Origin: Candidatus Undinarchaeales archaeon
GTDB lineage: Archaea; SpSt-1190; JASMDC01
Length of the DNA: 5,166 nucleotides
Direction: 5' to 3'
NCBI GenBank assembly: GCA_030753015.1
Contig: JASMDC010000077.1
Span: 1 to 5,166 of the forward strand
The notes under the pieces are model-generated. The model saw nothing but the letters and a program-made list of their open reading frames with translations, was not told the DNA's origin and made no database searches. Both the position numbers and the translations under genes were made by a program. This document shows positions 124-5,166 of the stretch, piece after piece. How positions within the stretch are numbered: the stretch's first letter is position 1; every line of letters starts with the position of its first letter.

Positions 124-2001
124 CTAAGCGACCTTGGCGAGTTCCTTGTCGATGACGTCCTTGAATACCGCGAACGGCTGGGCACCGCTGATCGAGAACC
201 CGTTCACAAAGAACGCCGGGGTTCCGGACACACCGTACTCCTGTCCGTCCTCGAGGTCCTTTTGAACCTCTTGGTTGTACTTGCCGCTGTCCACACAGTC
301 GTTGAACGTCGCTGTGTCCAGTCCAAGATCCGCTGCATAGCCCTTGAGCGTAGCATCGGAGACGTCCTGCTGGTTGGCGAATACCTTGTCATGGAATTCC
401 CAGAACTTCCCTTGATCATTGGCGCATCCGGCTGCAGAGTGAGCGTTCCGGGCCTGCGGATGTAGCTGGTCCAGGGGGAAGTCCCTTAACACGATCCGCA
501 CCTTGTCTGGGTACTCCTCCATGATCTGTTCCAGTGTTGGTAGGACACGTTGACAGAATGGGCACTGGAAGTCCGTGAACTCGATAATGGTCACTGGAGC
601 GTCCTCGGGACCCATGAAGGGATCATCGTCCACGCCCGGCGGTTGCAGGTACTTACCGGCACCGACCGCACCGGGGCTGACGACCCAGAGATCGCCTTTC
701 TTGGTCAGCACTTGGGCGACCTTATCGTAGTTACCCGCTTGCTGCACGCTCGAATCGAAGATGTACGCAGGAACGGCCTTTATATCGAGGTCCTCTATCA
801 TCTTCTTCCCCTCTGCAGAGGAGATATCTACATTGGTGACCTGGACCGTGGGGAAGAGCTGCGTACGGAAGACACCGATGAGCTCGGAAGGATCACAGGC
901 GTCACAGGTCTCGTCGTTCAGGACCGTGAGCTTCACGACCGGATCGTTGTCGCTCGCCCGCTCGCCGGTGAGGATCAACTCGATGACCTCTTCGAAGGCC
1001 GGGTAGGGCTGTGCTCCGGAGATCATCTCCTCCATGGGCCGTCCGTTCGCGTCCGTTCCCTGGATGAAGAAGCCCGGTGTACCGCTGATGCCCTTGGCCT
1101 GTCCTTCCGCCATGTCGTCCCTGACGAGCTGTGCCTTCTCATCCGAGTCCAGGCAGCTGTTGAATGTCCCGGTATCGAGGCCCAGGTCCGCAGCAAATCC
1201 CTTGAGGGATGATACCCCAAGGTTGTTCTGATTGTCGAAGAGTATGTCATGGTACTCCCAGAACTTGCCCTGGTCACGAGCACATTCCGACGCCTCTGCG
1301 GCCTTCTGGGCGTTCTCATGGAAGCCCAGCGGGAAGTGCTTGAAGATGACATTGACCTTGTCACCGTAGGTGGCCTTGATCTGTTCGATGGTCGGTACGA
1401 CCCGTGAACAGAACGGGCACTGGAAGTCGCTATACTCCACAATGGTGACCTTAGCTGTCCCGGAGGGGGCCGAGGGCCTCGGAGTGGCTGTGGGCGCTTT
1501 CGTCGGTGCCGCCGTGGGCGCCGCTGTCGGTTTGGGGGTCGCCTTCGGGGGGGTGCTCCCACCGGTCTCTTTCTGGATGATCGTGTCGACTGCCGACCCT
1601 TGGACTCCCATAAGCGCTAGACTCTGCTTTACGTCCTGTGCCGGGACACCACGTGCGAGCTGGTATTGCACGAAAGCCTCTACATTCTTGGCAGGGATCC
1701 CTTCTGCAGACGGTGCAGTGCCGGTGGCACCGACTCTTATACTGCCCATGGACAGTCCCACCGCCGCGATGACCATCACGGCGGCCAGCACCATCGCTGC
1801 GACCATCCAGGCGTTCGCTCCGTTCTCTGCGCTCTCCAAGCGGTCCTCGATCTCGTCGATCTCATCCTCGAGCTCTGTGAACCGACGGTTCATCTCGACA
1901 ATGCCTTCGTCCACTTCCTCGAGGCGCTCTTTCACAATCTTAAGAGATCCTCCGGAAGATCTCGCTTTTCCAGGCCGTGCGGCCAACTTCTTCTCAGCCA
2001 T
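124..2001 (-). CDS. Membrane-anchored DsbA-like thiol-disulfide oxidoreductase with three thioredoxin-fold domains
   Basis: Predicted extracytoplasmic dithiol oxidoreductase, 625 aa, much longer than a single-domain DsbA (about 200 aa). Order: charged N-terminus with a probable coiled coil (about 21-60, cytoplasmic), one TM helix (about 64-86), a small helical segment (about 103-145), a Pro/Thr/Ala linker (about 150-182), DsbA-like domain 1 (about 185-345; CPFC 195-198, Thr-cisPro in GTP 307-309), a smaller thioredoxin/glutaredoxin-like domain (about 354-435; CDAC 366-369, VP 410-411), and DsbA-like domain 2 (about 467-622; CPFC 480-483, GTP 593-595). Each DsbA domain has a further cysteine pair (C240/C283; C526/C569) at matching places, giving ten cysteines, all extracytoplasmic. 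The CPFC motif with Thr-cisPro matches the DSBA/BdbD family. The two DsbA domains are clearly homologous, implying internal duplication. The start is supported by AAGGTGA 7 nt upstream. Whether it oxidises, isomerises or reduces substrates cannot be told from sequence. Confidence 0.93.
   Translation of the reverse strand: MAEKKLAARPGKARSSGGSLKIVKERLEEVDEGIVEMNRRFTELEDEIDEIEDRLESAENGANAWMVAAMVLAAVMVIAAVGLSMGSIRVGATGTAPSAEGIPAKNVEAFVQYQLARGVPAQDVKQSLALMGVQGSAVDTIIQKETGGSTPPKATPKPTAAPTAAPTKAPTATPRPSAPSGTAKVTIVEYSDFQCPFCSRVVPTIEQIKATYGDKVNVIFKHFPLGFHENAQKAAEASECARDQGKFWEYHDILFDNQNNLGVSSLKGFAADLGLDTGTFNSCLDSDEKAQLVRDDMAEGQAKGISGTPGFFIQGTDANGRPMEEMISGAQPYPAFEEVIELILTGERASDNDPVVKLTVLNDETCDACDPSELIGVFRTQLFPTVQVTNVDISSAEGKKMIEDLDIKAVPAYIFDSSVQQAGNYDKVAQVLTKKGDLWVVSPGAVGAGKYLQPPGVDDDPFMGPEDAPVTIIEFTDFQCPFCQRVLPTLEQIMEEYPDKVRIVLRDFPLDQLHPQARNAHSAAGCANDQGKFWEFHDKVFANQQDVSDATLKGYAADLGLDTATFNDCVDSGKYNQEVQKDLEDGQEYGVSGTPAFFVNGFSISGAQPFAVFKDVIDKELAKVA
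1456..1554 (-). repeat. Low-complexity Pro/Thr/Ala linker coding region
   Basis: Encodes residues about 150-182 of the oxidoreductase, built from short degenerate units such as APTAAPTKAPTATP. It is a typical extended extracytoplasmic spacer that would lift the catalytic domains away from the membrane, and a possible O-glycosylation site (inference). Confidence 0.8.
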
Positions 2002-2055: not shown

Positions 2056-2093
2056 ATGAAACCCTTTATAATCTAATCCGTGAAACCAGTTTC
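2056..2093 (-). promoter_or_regulatory. Promoter and operator of the oxidoreductase operon (copy 1 of the shared 38-bp element)
   Basis: On the minus strand this holds the palindrome GAAAC-N2-GTTTC (2082-2093), then CGGATTAG, then the TATA box TTATAAAG (2064-2071), then GGTTTCAT running to 2056. Palindrome centre to TATA centre is about 20 bp, close to two helical turns. With normal archaeal spacing, transcription would start near 2041. The same architecture and nearly the same sequence recur in the opposite orientation at 2767-2804. The palindrome is read as an operator and GTTTC at 2058-2062 as an extra half-site between TATA and start; occupancy there could block initiation, while binding at the upstream palindrome could activate or repress. 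Confidence 0.8.
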
Positions 2094-2164: not shown

Positions 2165-2746
2165 ATGGACATAGGACGGCTCCTTTTCCGCATCGGAATT
2201 ATCCTCCTCATCGTGTCGGCCATCAACATCGTCCTTATCAAGAACTTCACAGACATGGTGCAAGAGAGTCGGAAAGAAGCCTGTGCTCTGGCCTGTGCGG
2301 CAGGTAGCTGCCCCGACGATATGGTGGACGGGGTGAATATGGCGGAGACTCCCCTCACACCCATCGGCATCTCACGGCGCATCCTCTCTTGCAGTGACCA
2401 AGACCACGACCTCGGTACTCCCATCGAGACCTACGTCAGTATCATTACGGCCTGCATCTCCGCACTGGTGGGCATCATGATGATCGAAATCTCCCGCAGG
2501 CTCAGCTCTGAAGGCGTGGACGTGGCTAAGAAGATGGAACACATACTCGACACCCTTGAGGGCGAGGAACGTGAGGTGTACCGGCTCGTCACCGAGGCAG
2601 ACGGTTCGATCATGCAGAGTGACATCGTCAATAACACGAGTCTCACAAAGGTCAAGGTGACCCGTCTCCTCGACAAGCTCGAGGGCAAGGGGCTCGTTGA
2701 ACGGCGTAGGCGGGGCATGGGGAACCTCGTTGTGCTCAAGCACTAG
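2165..2746 (+). CDS. Membrane-anchored winged helix-turn-helix transcriptional regulator with a cysteine-containing external loop
   Basis: 193-aa predicted one-component regulator. TM1 spans about 6-25, an external loop about 26-88, TM2 about 89-108, and a cytoplasmic winged HTH about 130-193. Basic residues before TM1 (R5, R9) and after TM2 (R111, R112) support both ends being cytoplasmic. The C-terminal part fits a MarR-like winged helix: an EEREVYRLV helix, QSDIVNNTSLTKVKVTRLLD as the helix-turn-helix, then GLVERRRRGMGNLVV as helix end and wing. It resembles archaeal membrane-associated regulators of the COG2512 type (recognised from memory). The external loop holds C40, C44, C49 and C76, with C97 inside TM2; these could form disulfides or bind metal. 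The gene lies between two inverted copies of a palindromic promoter element, making it the obvious candidate to bind them. The ATG at 2165 is chosen because it opens just before TM1 and matches a leaderless start. Confidence 0.88.
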   Translation: MDIGRLLFRIGIILLIVSAINIVLIKNFTDMVQESRKEACALACAAGSCPDDMVDGVNMAETPLTPIGISRRILSCSDQDHDLGTPIETYVSIITACISALVGIMMIEISRRLSSEGVDVAKKMEHILDTLEGEEREVYRLVTEADGSIMQSDIVNNTSLTKVKVTRLLDKLEGKGLVERRRRGMGNLVVLKH

Positions 2747-2766: not shown

Positions 2767-2804
2767 GAAACCAGTTTCGCGGATTAGTTTATAAAGGGTT
2801 TCAT
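2767..2804 (+). promoter_or_regulatory. Promoter and operator of the ABC/DUF2318 operon (copy 2 of the shared 38-bp element)
   Basis: The palindrome GAAACCAGTTTC (2767-2778) is followed by CGGATTAG (2780-2787), the TATA box TTATAAAG (2789-2796) and GGTTTCAT (2797-2804). ATGAAACC at 2765-2772 and GGTTTCAT at 2797-2804 form a perfect 8-bp inverted repeat bracketing the TATA box. TATA centre to the permease ATG is about 27 bp and no Shine-Dalgarno is visible before 2819, so the mRNA is probably leaderless. Compared with the reverse complement of 2056-2093, 34 of 38 positions agree; two of the four differences are the central CA of the palindrome. Confidence 0.82.
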
Positions 2805-2818
2805 GTTCCTATCGGTAG

Positions 2819-3976
2819 ATGGATATATTCGGGCTTGCTATCAGGAACCTGGTCCGGCGCAGGAGCCGAACCCTCTTCCTCGTTCTGGGCATAGCTGTCA
2901 GCATCGCCACCGTGGTTGCCATGTTCGCGATCACGGCCTCGATGGAAGGGAAGGTTAACAGCGAGCTTGAGCGCTTTGGTGCCAATATTGTCGTCGTTCC
3001 GCGAAGCCAATCCATCAACCTCCAGTTCGGTGGTTTCGGGATGGGAGGTGTCTCCTTTGGATCCACCGATATCGATGCCGAATCGTTCGACCTCATCCAC
3101 ACGATCAAGAACAACGAGAACCTCGCCCACATCGCTCCGAAGGTCTTTGGTATAATCGAGGGGAAGACCGAGAATGAGCCAGTTATCATCGCGGGCGTGA
3201 ACTTCACAGAAGAACCGTCCGTGAAGGCGTGGTGGAACGTGAACGGCACGCTGCCTGAAGCGGAGCACGAGGCGCTCGTCGGGGCCGATGCAGCCGAGCT
3301 GTTCGGACTCGTTCCGGGGAGTACCATATCACTGAAGGGTCAAGAATTCACGGTCTCAGGCGTTCTCCAGTCCTCGGGTTCCACCGACGATAGCATAGTG
3401 TTCCTCCACCTGCCCATAGCCCAGGAGCTCCTGGACAAGCAGGGCGTGTACACCATGGTGGACGTCCGGGCGCTGTGCAACACATGCCCCATTGACGAGA
3501 TCACCAGACAGATCATGGAGGCAGTACCGGATGTGAAGGCGACACCTGTCAAACAGGTCGCTTCTGCCGAGATGGCGATCCTTAGCAGCGTACGTAACTT
3601 CTCGATGCTCATATCGTCAGTCATCATCCTCCTCAGCGTGCTGGGACTGGCGGGCCTCGTCCTCTCATCTGTGAACGAGCGCACCCGTGAGATTGGAGTA
3701 CTGATGTCGCTGGGATTCAAGGAGGGACAGATCGCCCGGCTCATCATCTACGAGACGGCTCTCATGGGCTTCGTCGGCGGTATCTTGGGGTTCGTCCTGG
3801 GTGTCGGTATCGCGGTACCTGTGGGCCCCTCCATCGTCGGGACCCCTATCATCCCCTCAGTCACATTCCTCCCCATCGCCATCGCCCTCTCCCTCTCGAT
3901 CACGCTGATCTCGTCGATATATCCCGCCCATCAGGCTGCGCACCTGCACCCATCGGACGCGCTGAGGGCATTGTGA
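2819..3976 (+). CDS. MacB/FtsX-type ABC transporter permease with an extracytoplasmic CxxC
   Basis: 385-aa integral membrane subunit of a type VII (MacB-like) ABC system. TM1 is about 18-40 after a basic N-terminus (LVRRRSRT), followed by a large extracytoplasmic MacB-PCD-like domain about 41-260, then TM2 about 263-285, TM3 about 314-336 and TM4 about 351-368. The FtsX signature region is clear: NERTREIGVLMSLGF (286-300) precedes TM3, and YPAHQAAHLHPSDALRAL closes the protein, as in LolC/MacB permeases. The external domain has a Gly-rich stretch (about 70-81) and the only two cysteines, C220 and C223, in LCNTCP. Such subunits usually act as dimers and transmit ATPase motion to the periplasmic side rather than forming a classical channel. 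Linkage to a DUF2318 protein suggests the permease type found in P19-like iron-uptake loci (inference). The ATPase gene follows after 11 bp. Confidence 0.93.
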   Translation: MDIFGLAIRNLVRRRSRTLFLVLGIAVSIATVVAMFAITASMEGKVNSELERFGANIVVVPRSQSINLQFGGFGMGGVSFGSTDIDAESFDLIHTIKNNENLAHIAPKVFGIIEGKTENEPVIIAGVNFTEEPSVKAWWNVNGTLPEAEHEALVGADAAELFGLVPGSTISLKGQEFTVSGVLQSSGSTDDSIVFLHLPIAQELLDKQGVYTMVDVRALCNTCPIDEITRQIMEAVPDVKATPVKQVASAEMAILSSVRNFSMLISSVIILLSVLGLAGLVLSSVNERTREIGVLMSLGFKEGQIARLIIYETALMGFVGGILGFVLGVGIAVPVGPSIVGTPIIPSVTFLPIAIALSLSITLISSIYPAHQAAHLHPSDALRAL

Positions 3977-3979
3977 GGT
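3975..3979 (+). promoter_or_regulatory. Shine-Dalgarno site of the ATPase gene, overlapping the permease stop
   Basis: GAGGT overlaps the permease TGA stop (3974-3976) and lies 8 nt before the ATG at 3988. It favours that ATG over the GTG at 3973, which would overlap the permease by 4 nt, and suggests translational coupling. Confidence 0.6.
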
Positions 3980-3987
3980 TATTTGAT

Positions 3988-4653
3988 ATGGTATTCATCG
4001 ATGTCAAGGGAGCGCGCAAGGAGTTCAACATTGGTGTTTCGATCATCGCCCTCAAGGACGTGACATTCTCCGTCGAACAGGGCGAGTTCGTCGGCATCAT
4101 GGGACCCAGCGGGAGCGGTAAGAGCACCCTGCTCAACATCGTGGGCGGTCTCGAGCAGCTGGACGGTGGTGCCGTGACCGTGGACGATATGGACATATAT
4201 GATACGACGTCCGCGACACTGGCGAACTACCGCAGGGAGTACGTGGGGTTCATCTTCCAGCAGTTCCACCTGATACCCACCCTCACTGCCGTCGAGAACG
4301 TATGCCTCCCCCTCATGCTCTCCGGCCTCCCCGGGGACGAACAGCTCGAGCGTGCGCGCGAGGTGCTCGATTGGGTGGGGCTCAAGGGATTGGAGGACCG
4401 CCTCCCCCATCAGCTCTCCGGTGGAGAGCAACCACGCGTGGCCATCGCACGCGCAACGGTCAATGAACCGCTCATCCTCCTAGCCGACGAGCCCACGGGG
4501 AACCTGGACTCGACAACGGGCGAGGAGATTATGAAGCTGCTCCGGCGGCTCAACGATAAAGGAACGACGATCCTCTTCGTGACCCATGACCAGCGTCTGG
4601 GGGCCGAGGCGGACCGCATTGTCAGGATCAAGGACGGTGTTGCACATGAGTAA
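3988..4653 (+). CDS. LolD/MacB-type ABC transporter ATP-binding protein
   Basis: 221-aa cytoplasmic ATPase partner of the upstream permease; length is normal for LolD-type subunits. Motifs with this start: Walker A GPSGSGKST (39-47), Q-loop glutamine Q91 in GFIFQQFHLIPTLT, ABC signature LSGGEQPRVAIARA (143-156), Walker B ILLADE (163-168) with catalytic E168, D-loop GNLD (171-174) and switch H200 in VTHD. All catalytic residues are present. The position after LSGGEQ, usually Q in this subfamily (LSGGEQQR), is proline here (codon CCA, 4432-4434). The ATG at 3988 is preferred because MVFIDVKG aligns with the usual family start and has GAGGT 8 nt upstream; a GTG at 3973 would add five residues. 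Its last 8 bases overlap the next gene. Specificity cannot be read from the ATPase; context points to an envelope metal or redox role. Confidence 0.94.
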   Translation: MVFIDVKGARKEFNIGVSIIALKDVTFSVEQGEFVGIMGPSGSGKSTLLNIVGGLEQLDGGAVTVDDMDIYDTTSATLANYRREYVGFIFQQFHLIPTLTAVENVCLPLMLSGLPGDEQLERAREVLDWVGLKGLEDRLPHQLSGGEQPRVAIARATVNEPLILLADEPTGNLDSTTGEEIMKLLRRLNDKGTTILFVTHDQRLGAEADRIVRIKDGVAHE

Positions 4654-5166
4654 AAGACGGAACAAGCGACGTAAGAATGCAGAACAGGACGACCTCCTCC
4701 AGAAGAAGCGAGATCGGCTCCACGGGAGCCCTCGACCGAGCTCCATGAACAAGTGGATCGCACCAGCGGCCCTATTGCTGGGTGTACTGGCCGTAGCGGC
4801 GTACGCCTTCTCCGGGGGGAACGATTCCCCTGCAATGGTCATCCTTCCCGCGGACGCGCCCCTCCCCGAGGGTGCCACGTCGACCGCGCTGGAAGCGGCC
4901 GAGGCGCCCGATACAGCGGGACCGACTGCCGAGGTAGAGAAAGCATATGTCTACGAACCACAGAAAGTCTCCTATTCCGGAAAGACCGTGTCCTTCAGCG
5001 AAATCGAACTGAGCGATGCTGGCGAGTACATCGAGATCCCGCTCGAGGACATCCTCGAAAAGAAGCTCGTGCGGTTCAACTACCAAGGGAATAAGCTCGT
5101 CCGCATGCTCGCATACGTGGCTCCTTCCGGCCGTATCGTGACCTCAGTGCGGGTGTGCGAGCCGTG
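4646..5166 (+). CDS. Membrane-anchored DUF2318-type predicted metal/Fe-S binding protein (partial, 3' end missing)
   Basis: 173 complete codons are visible before the window ends. The protein has a very basic cytoplasmic N-terminus (MSKRRNKRRK), one TM helix or signal anchor (about 37-56), a low-complexity Ala/Pro/Glu linker (about 60-100), then a folded external domain. The pattern from about 100 on (VSFSEIEL, EYIEIPLEDI, LVRFNYQGNKLVRMLAYVAPSGRIVTSVRVCEP) matches my recollection of DUF2318 proteins, where a CEPC motif is followed by a second CxxC (CxxCGTxW). The two leftover bases TG fit the next codon being Cys. These proteins are annotated as Fe-S or metal containing and accompany FtsX-type permeases, MacB-type ATPases and thioredoxins in P19/FTR1 iron-uptake loci. 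The start overlaps the ATPase gene by 8 nt, with AGGA (4631-4634) and GGTG (4636-4639) upstream. Function is inferred from the family; the metal site lies outside the window. Confidence 0.82.
   Translation, partial: MSKRRNKRRKNAEQDDLLQKKRDRLHGSPRPSSMNKWIAPAALLLGVLAVAAYAFSGGNDSPAMVILPADAPLPEGATSTALEAAEAPDTAGPTAEVEKAYVYEPQKVSYSGKTVSFSEIELSDAGEYIEIPLEDILEKKLVRFNYQGNKLVRMLAYVAPSGRIVTSVRVCEP

Follow-up and report, generated by a model that had tools for sequence, protein, structure and literature searches.

The regulator locus and its flanking elements

The window analyzed here, that is, the whole stretch of DNA studied, is an entire contig (C92) of 5,166 bases from a 3.85-Mb archaeal MAG. It encodes a 193-residue regulator (2165..2746, forward strand), in which a transmembrane (TM) hairpin is followed by a C-terminal winged HTH (wHTH). 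Divergent from it, on the reverse strand, lies a gene for a membrane-anchored tandem DsbA-like oxidoreductase (124..2001; 625 aa) with CPFC, CDAC, and CPFC motifs. Downstream on the forward strand are genes for a MacB/FtsX-type ABC permease with CNTC at residues 220 to 223 (2819..3976; 385 aa), an ABC transporter ATPase (3973..4653; 226 aa), and the N-terminal part of an FtrD-like protein (PF10080/DUF2318; 4646..5166), the last being cut by the contig end. The CDAC motif of the DsbA-like protein is in its middle domain, and one membrane-anchored chain carries three potential redox motifs. In the PDB, the oxidoreductase matches chains whose names are suppression of copper sensitivity protein, copper resistance protein, and metal resistance protein, a likeness to Scs-type thiol-copper proteins.

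Pfam gave no FtrD match for the ORF at 4646-5166 at an E value of ≤1 because the gene is cut. Its identity was recovered with a family HMM (i-E of 6e-5) and hhalign (probability of 88), both of which match the ORF to the N-terminal half of FtrD-like proteins. The sole FtrD-like match in the genome is a C-terminal half that opens another contig, C34 (L182:3-194). The two halves are complementary, with a few residues missing between them, and C34 continues after the FtrD half with a 2xHMA membrane protein and then a DsbD_2 protein. As no exact overlap was found between the ends of C92 and C34, the join is one that we strongly infer from the complementary FtrD halves and the gene order of the family; the operon order is probably permease, ATPase, FtrD, HMA, and DsbD.

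In the regulator, hydropathy places TM helix 1 at residues 7 to 25 (2183..2239) and TM helix 2 at residues 91 to 109 (2435..2491), separated by a loop of about 62 residues, and a winged helix of the DUF7343/MarR type occupies residues 133 to 191 (2561..2737), all on the forward strand. An AlphaFold2 model built from 68 sequences (mean pLDDT of 86.6) has helices at residues 3 to 45 and 87 to 130 and the winged helix at residues 133 to 191, with low confidence for loop residues 51 to 80. The second helix is unbroken from residue 87 to residue 130 and leads into the winged helix. The external-loop segment from C40 to C49 (2282..2311) contains the codons of C40 (2282-2284), C44 (2294-2296), and C49 (2309-2311); in the model, helix 1 has C40 and C44 at its outer end, and C49 follows shortly after it. 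A fourth loop cysteine, C76 (2390..2392), is within an insertion private to the window regulator (1 of 68 sequences), and a fifth, C97, is inside TM2. The two-helix anchor, the loop of about 60 residues with C40, C44, C49, and C76, and the wHTH are present, by hydropathy, AlphaFold2, and Pfam, as the original prediction had them; so are the neighbors that it named, the divergent DsbA-like protein with CPFC/CDAC/CPFC, the CNTC permease, the ABC ATPase, and the truncated FtrD-like protein.

The best Pfam match is to DUF7343 (PF24034) at residues 134 to 191, with an E value of 5.5e-12 and 45.8 bits against a gathering cutoff of 27.6, while the MarR match is marginal (26.9 bits against 24.6). Structure comparison shows that the wHTH fold resembles MarR, ArsR, and CodY. 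The N- and C-terminal helices around the wHTH by which MarR-type proteins dimerize were not found in the model, as the chain stops two residues past the wing and the helix before the wHTH is an extension of TM2. Pfam found no TRASH domain in the regulator or its relatives. No matching NCBIfam model extends beyond the winged helix, and the best scores of the window protein are far under the cutoff. The family means for Lys plus Arg are 5.6 after TM2 versus 1.3 in the loop; this enrichment of positive charge behind TM2 fits the predicted topology, with the loop outside and the winged helix inside.

A 43-nt inverted repeat, with arms at 2052-2094 and 2766-2808 that are 88% complementary, brackets the regulator gene. 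The repeat contains the palindrome GAAACYRGTTTC, a spacer CGGATTAG, a TATA-like sequence TTATAAAG, and then a GTTTC half-site. In the promoter of the DsbA-like gene, the composite element (2056..2093, reverse strand) reads as palindrome GAAACTGGTTTC (2082-2093), CGGATTAG, TTATAAAG as TATA box, and GGTTTCAT. The second copy (2767..2804, forward strand), inside the repeat arm 2766-2808, is in the promoter of the permease operon. With 3 mismatches allowed, the 38-nt composite has just two copies in the 3.85-Mb genome; since the pattern was derived from these two copies, their zero-mismatch score is given by construction, and the informative part is that there is no third copy. The CopA of this genome is encoded on another contig, and no operator like those of the window was found beside it. 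The other three genomic GAAACYRGTTTC sites (L071 to L073) show no clear tie to metal genes.

Among family members elsewhere, the perfect GAAACNNGTTTC palindrome is also found upstream of L162, L166, and L169, with none for 19 permuted patterns. The palindrome TATAACANTGTTATA fits seven other loci within two mismatches at the same place upstream, compared with a permuted maximum of three. A universal GAAACYRGTTTC operator for the family was rejected because no more than 4 of 91 upstream regions contain the exact sequence (0 for the permuted patterns, n = 19). Palindromic motif EM over all upstream regions returned mostly AT-rich promoter sequence. Upstream of the distant members L048, L171, L172, and L173, repeated TGAAACC half-sites stand beside TATA-like sequence, which suggests a common GAAACC operator class among distant members. 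For the window, the duplicated operator is a suggestive sign of transcription regulation from the membrane. From the position of the regulator between the two elements and from its family, we infer that it binds these candidate operators.

A DPANN family with two invariant cysteines

When the regulator was used as a query against GTDB genome contigs, 22 loci were returned, all titled archaea and nearly all from DPANN groups, including Woesearchaeota, Nanoarchaeota, Micrarchaeota, Aenigmatarchaeota, and Parvarchaeota. The same regulator is encoded on JAAOXV010000051.1, a contig of a genome that was deposited under the name Candidatus Altiarchaeota. In 156 genomes of one phylum, a profile search recovered about 57 relatives of full length. 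All 68 aligned relatives match DUF7343 at an E value of ≤0.001, and the regulator is a member of an unnamed family of DPANN archaea.

Cysteine is present at C40 and C49 in 68/68 aligned relatives. These two are the sole fully invariant positions of the N-terminal 125 residues and rank top in conservation outside the wHTH. The original prediction had counted all four loop cysteines into the sensor; C40 and C49 hold that place, whereas conservation is lacking at C44 (Cys in 2/68) and C76 (1/68); the candidate sensor is therefore a Cys pair, and a four-cysteine site of the zinc-knuckle type is out. C97 is likewise found in only 1/68. The spacing of the pair spans 4 to 13, most often 5 or 6, and Pro directly follows the second Cys in 53/68 relatives. 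The three-Cys form of the window regulator, C-x3-C-x(4-7)-C, recurs in L044, L144, L156, and L168. No conserved metal ligand was found among the relatives besides the two Cys: His (54/71) and Met (39/71) are common but not universal, and the window regulator lacks the CxHGxxCPM form. Judged from the alignment, Cys conservation in the family exceeds chance, and functional constraint on the external cysteines is supported.

Because the first family profile was built from Cys-containing members and risked circularity, a separate tree was made from the winged-helix region alone; it rests on few columns, and many of its forks are weak. Its main clade (support, 92/92) has 79 rows, 77 of them with the Cys pair. 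The two pair-less rows in it are the sisters L042 and L167, with no copper gene found nearby. The other Cys-less proteins, L045, L046, L047, L169, L170, and L171, are outside the main clade. All eight Cys-less paralogues have the same plan of two TM helices and a wHTH and are mostly found beside MacB-type ABC transporters, the permeases of which contain no Cys. An exported protein of about 300 aa is common to the neighborhoods of L045, L046, L169, and L171.

Gene neighborhoods and the candidate signal

We counted HMA proteins, P-type ATPases, and FtrD-like or DUF411 proteins encoded within 5 kb of the regulator as copper-type genes. Such genes are found at 51 of the 81 Cys-pair loci versus 0 of the 8 Cys-less loci; a stricter tally gives 49/81, as L129 and L166 were counted only through an ATPase without CPC. 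Fisher tests on single classes were modest (P-type ATPase, P = 0.019; HMA, P = 0.048), given the small number of Cys-less loci. The neighboring genes match the Pfam families HMA, E1-E2 ATPase, FtrD-like, DUF411, DsbD_2, and cupredoxin, and the usual gene order is regulator, HMA protein 40 to 70 bp downstream, FtrD-like protein, and CopA-like ATPase. As a genome-wide control, HMA domains were mapped in 36 genomes; of 22 HMA clusters, 16, as counted from the listed places, are no more than 5 kb away from the regulator, with about 0.25 expected (binomial P of ~7e-27). Of the nearby P-type ATPases of the DKTGT type, 33/37 have CPC before DKTGT and one more has CPH; CPC is the motif of soft-metal pumps. 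The ATPases with neither motif (L124, L129, and L166) may, from their sequences, not be metal pumps.

Several of these neighborhoods have features of their own. An N-terminal YHS-type domain replaces HMA in the neighboring P1B-ATPases of L132, L135, L137, L140, L141, L142, L146, and L161, and at L128 (8320-9825) HMA, DsbD_2, and cupredoxin domains are joined in one protein adjoining the regulator. The neighbor clusters c1, c3, and c4 (e.g., L142:7618-8163, L144:6459-6953, and L165:3411-4241) are recurrent and have no Pfam match above the cutoff; one of them has an HCPLC motif behind a signal-like helix. They may be novel metal/thiol proteins that DPANN archaea export.

DsbA-like genes lie within 5 kb at 19/81 Cys-pair loci and 0/8 Cys-less loci, a difference that is not significant alone (P = 0.19). 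In L062, L118, L134, L145, L152, and L155, the neighbors are DsbA-like only, which counts against the copper reading. The original prediction had proposed to test whether the four loop cysteines are conserved in orthologues and co-occur with the oxidoreductase; two cysteines are conserved, and the co-occurrence, at only 19/81 loci, is less common than that with copper genes, at 51/81. Copper or another thiophilic metal is thus a better first guess for the signal than general disulfide state. The refuting case that it had named was sought, and no Cys-less orthologue was found in a copper/Dsb context; the Cys-less paralogues sit by Cys-free MacB-type transporters. As MacB-type ABC genes also accompany these paralogues, the ABC part of the window context is not diagnostic.

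The main rival of the copper reading is a thiol/disulfide sensor, in which a reversible external C40-C49 disulfide, set by the co-regulated DsbA-like protein, would read the oxidizing state outside. The divergent DsbA-like gene has the same operator as the permease operon, no DsbA-like gene lies within 5 kb of the Cys-less paralogues, and Cys pairs are also found in the DsbD_2 and FtrD neighbors. The variable spacing of 4 to 13 residues is easily met by a disulfide, and CadC and ToxR provide precedents. However, copper genes are the commoner neighbors, and the link of Dsb genes to the Cys pair is not significant by itself; we consider this reading plausible but less likely than that of a copper sensor. 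The two readings overlap because copper stress itself harms exported disulfides.

Alternatively, a permanent disulfide between C40 and C49 would have a structural role in stapling the hairpin, while something else, such as membrane state, a partner protein, or a transporter, would be sensed by the regulator. The pair-less paralogues retain the two-helix and wHTH plan beside ABC transporters, which indicates that this plan can sense without Cys. The presence of the pair, however, tracks copper genes, and in L042 and L167 pair and copper context are absent together; a purely structural role is, in our estimate, quite improbable.

It is very unlikely that the sensed metal is iron, within a FetMP/FetABCDEF-like iron system: a two-thiolate site is a poor site for iron(II), no FtrC/FetM permease was detected among the window genes, and the HMA proteins, CPC-type ATPases, YHS-ATPases, and DUF411 proteins across the relatives indicate copper. 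Iron would be possible in the window itself, as its permease, ATPase, DUF2318/FtrD, and thioredoxin-type proteins match the parts of the Campylobacter jejuni fet cluster and the set resembles the fetMP-fetABCDEF arrangement, in which, according to the part of the account drawn on here, ABC permease, ATPase, DUF2318, and thioredoxins occur together (PMC10783030). That cluster is Fur controlled, and the same part of the account describes no transmembrane wHTH.

A proposed direct copper sensor across the membrane

The invariant Cys pair, the linkage to copper genes, the operator duplication, and the predicted fold and topology are consistent with a one-component sensor of extracytoplasmic copper, or another thiophilic metal, acting through the external Cys pair, a reading to which we assign a probability of about one-half. 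Against it stand the want of a conserved ligand beyond the two Cys, the relatives with DsbA-like neighbors only, the fet-like gene set of the window, and the placement of CopA on another contig with no such operator found next to it. The two-helix hairpin would display C40 and C49, helped in the window protein by C44, on the outer face, where the pair would clamp Cu(I) or a similar thiophilic metal through two thiolates. Metal binding would alter the hairpin, and the continuous TM2 helix (residues 87 to 130) would pass the signal on by shifting the spacing or orientation of a putative cytoplasmic winged-helix dimer. The dimer would act on the GAAACYRGTTTC operators adjoining the TATA boxes, the occupancy of which would change. 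Its targets would be the divergent DsbA-like gene and the MacB permease-ATPase-FtrD-HMA-DsbD operon, and the outcome would be control of extracellular metal handling and thiol repair. Copper and thiol inputs may both act, since copper oxidizes thiols. The original prediction of a transmembrane thiol or metal sensor that directly regulates transcription holds as to the membrane-anchored one-component type and the thiol/metal context, with candidate operators on both flanking promoters, but not as to a four-Cys sensor.

The mechanism had also been called unusual, and it is, but precedents exist in the bacterial CadC, ToxR, and TcpP and in the archaeal membrane-bound ArnR. CadC, ToxR, and TcpP have an N-terminal OmpR-type wHTH, one TM helix, and a large periplasmic domain, an architecture that was not found in our regulator, which has a C-terminal MarR-like wHTH, two TM helices, and a short loop. 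Like it, they are membrane anchored, and their extracytoplasmic Cys pairs influence activity (PMC3096576, PMC3483227, and PMC7017273). ArnR and ArnR1 of Sulfolobus are similar in being archaeal, membrane-bound one-component HTH proteins with two TM helices; they differ in an N-terminal HTH, a HAMP and sensor domain, and a role in archaella and pili, and the part of the source consulted describes no Cys loop (PMC6396743).

The class of transmembrane transcription regulators is well known and occurs widely among bacteria and archaea (PMC10269533), and the window regulator has both of its features, TM regions and a DNA-binding domain in one chain. The main text of that source does not contain the words copper, cysteine, MarR, or DUF7343, whereas the present family has two TM helices and an invariant external Cys pair. 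Copper binding by two cysteines has a parallel in Escherichia coli CueR, in which C112 and C120 of one loop bind Cu(I) linearly; as in other metal loops of the MerR family, two Cys ending a short loop bind a soft metal, with similar geometry (PMC9909328). CueR, however, has a cytoplasmic MerR fold, and no homology with our regulator was seen. The archaeal copper regulator CopR adjoins copA but has an N-terminal HTH and a C-terminal TRASH domain, which is absent here, and no membrane anchor is mentioned for it (PMC7830388). In the literature searched, which left most subscription papers outside, we found no description of this regulator family or of an archaeal membrane copper regulator. The family is a new variant within the known class of transmembrane regulators and apparently undescribed.

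Extracytoplasmic copper is usually sensed by two-component systems such as CusRS/CopRS. Tentatively, and with somewhat less than even confidence, we propose that the members of the family sense copper directly across the membrane and serve many DPANN archaea as their main copper regulators. An external two-Cys clamp would control the cytoplasmic winged helix, and neither a kinase nor a second protein would take part. The analysis gives a predicted function to a family labeled only DUF7343/MarR and names its likely ligand residues and a candidate operator in the window. It also suggests that these archaea regulate metal homeostasis and thiol homeostasis outside the cell together. If the proposal is true, a single protein of 160 to 190 aa, able both to read the outer face and to contact DNA, would come close to the smallest copper signaling device possible, and such a small device would suit the reduced genomes of DPANN archaea.
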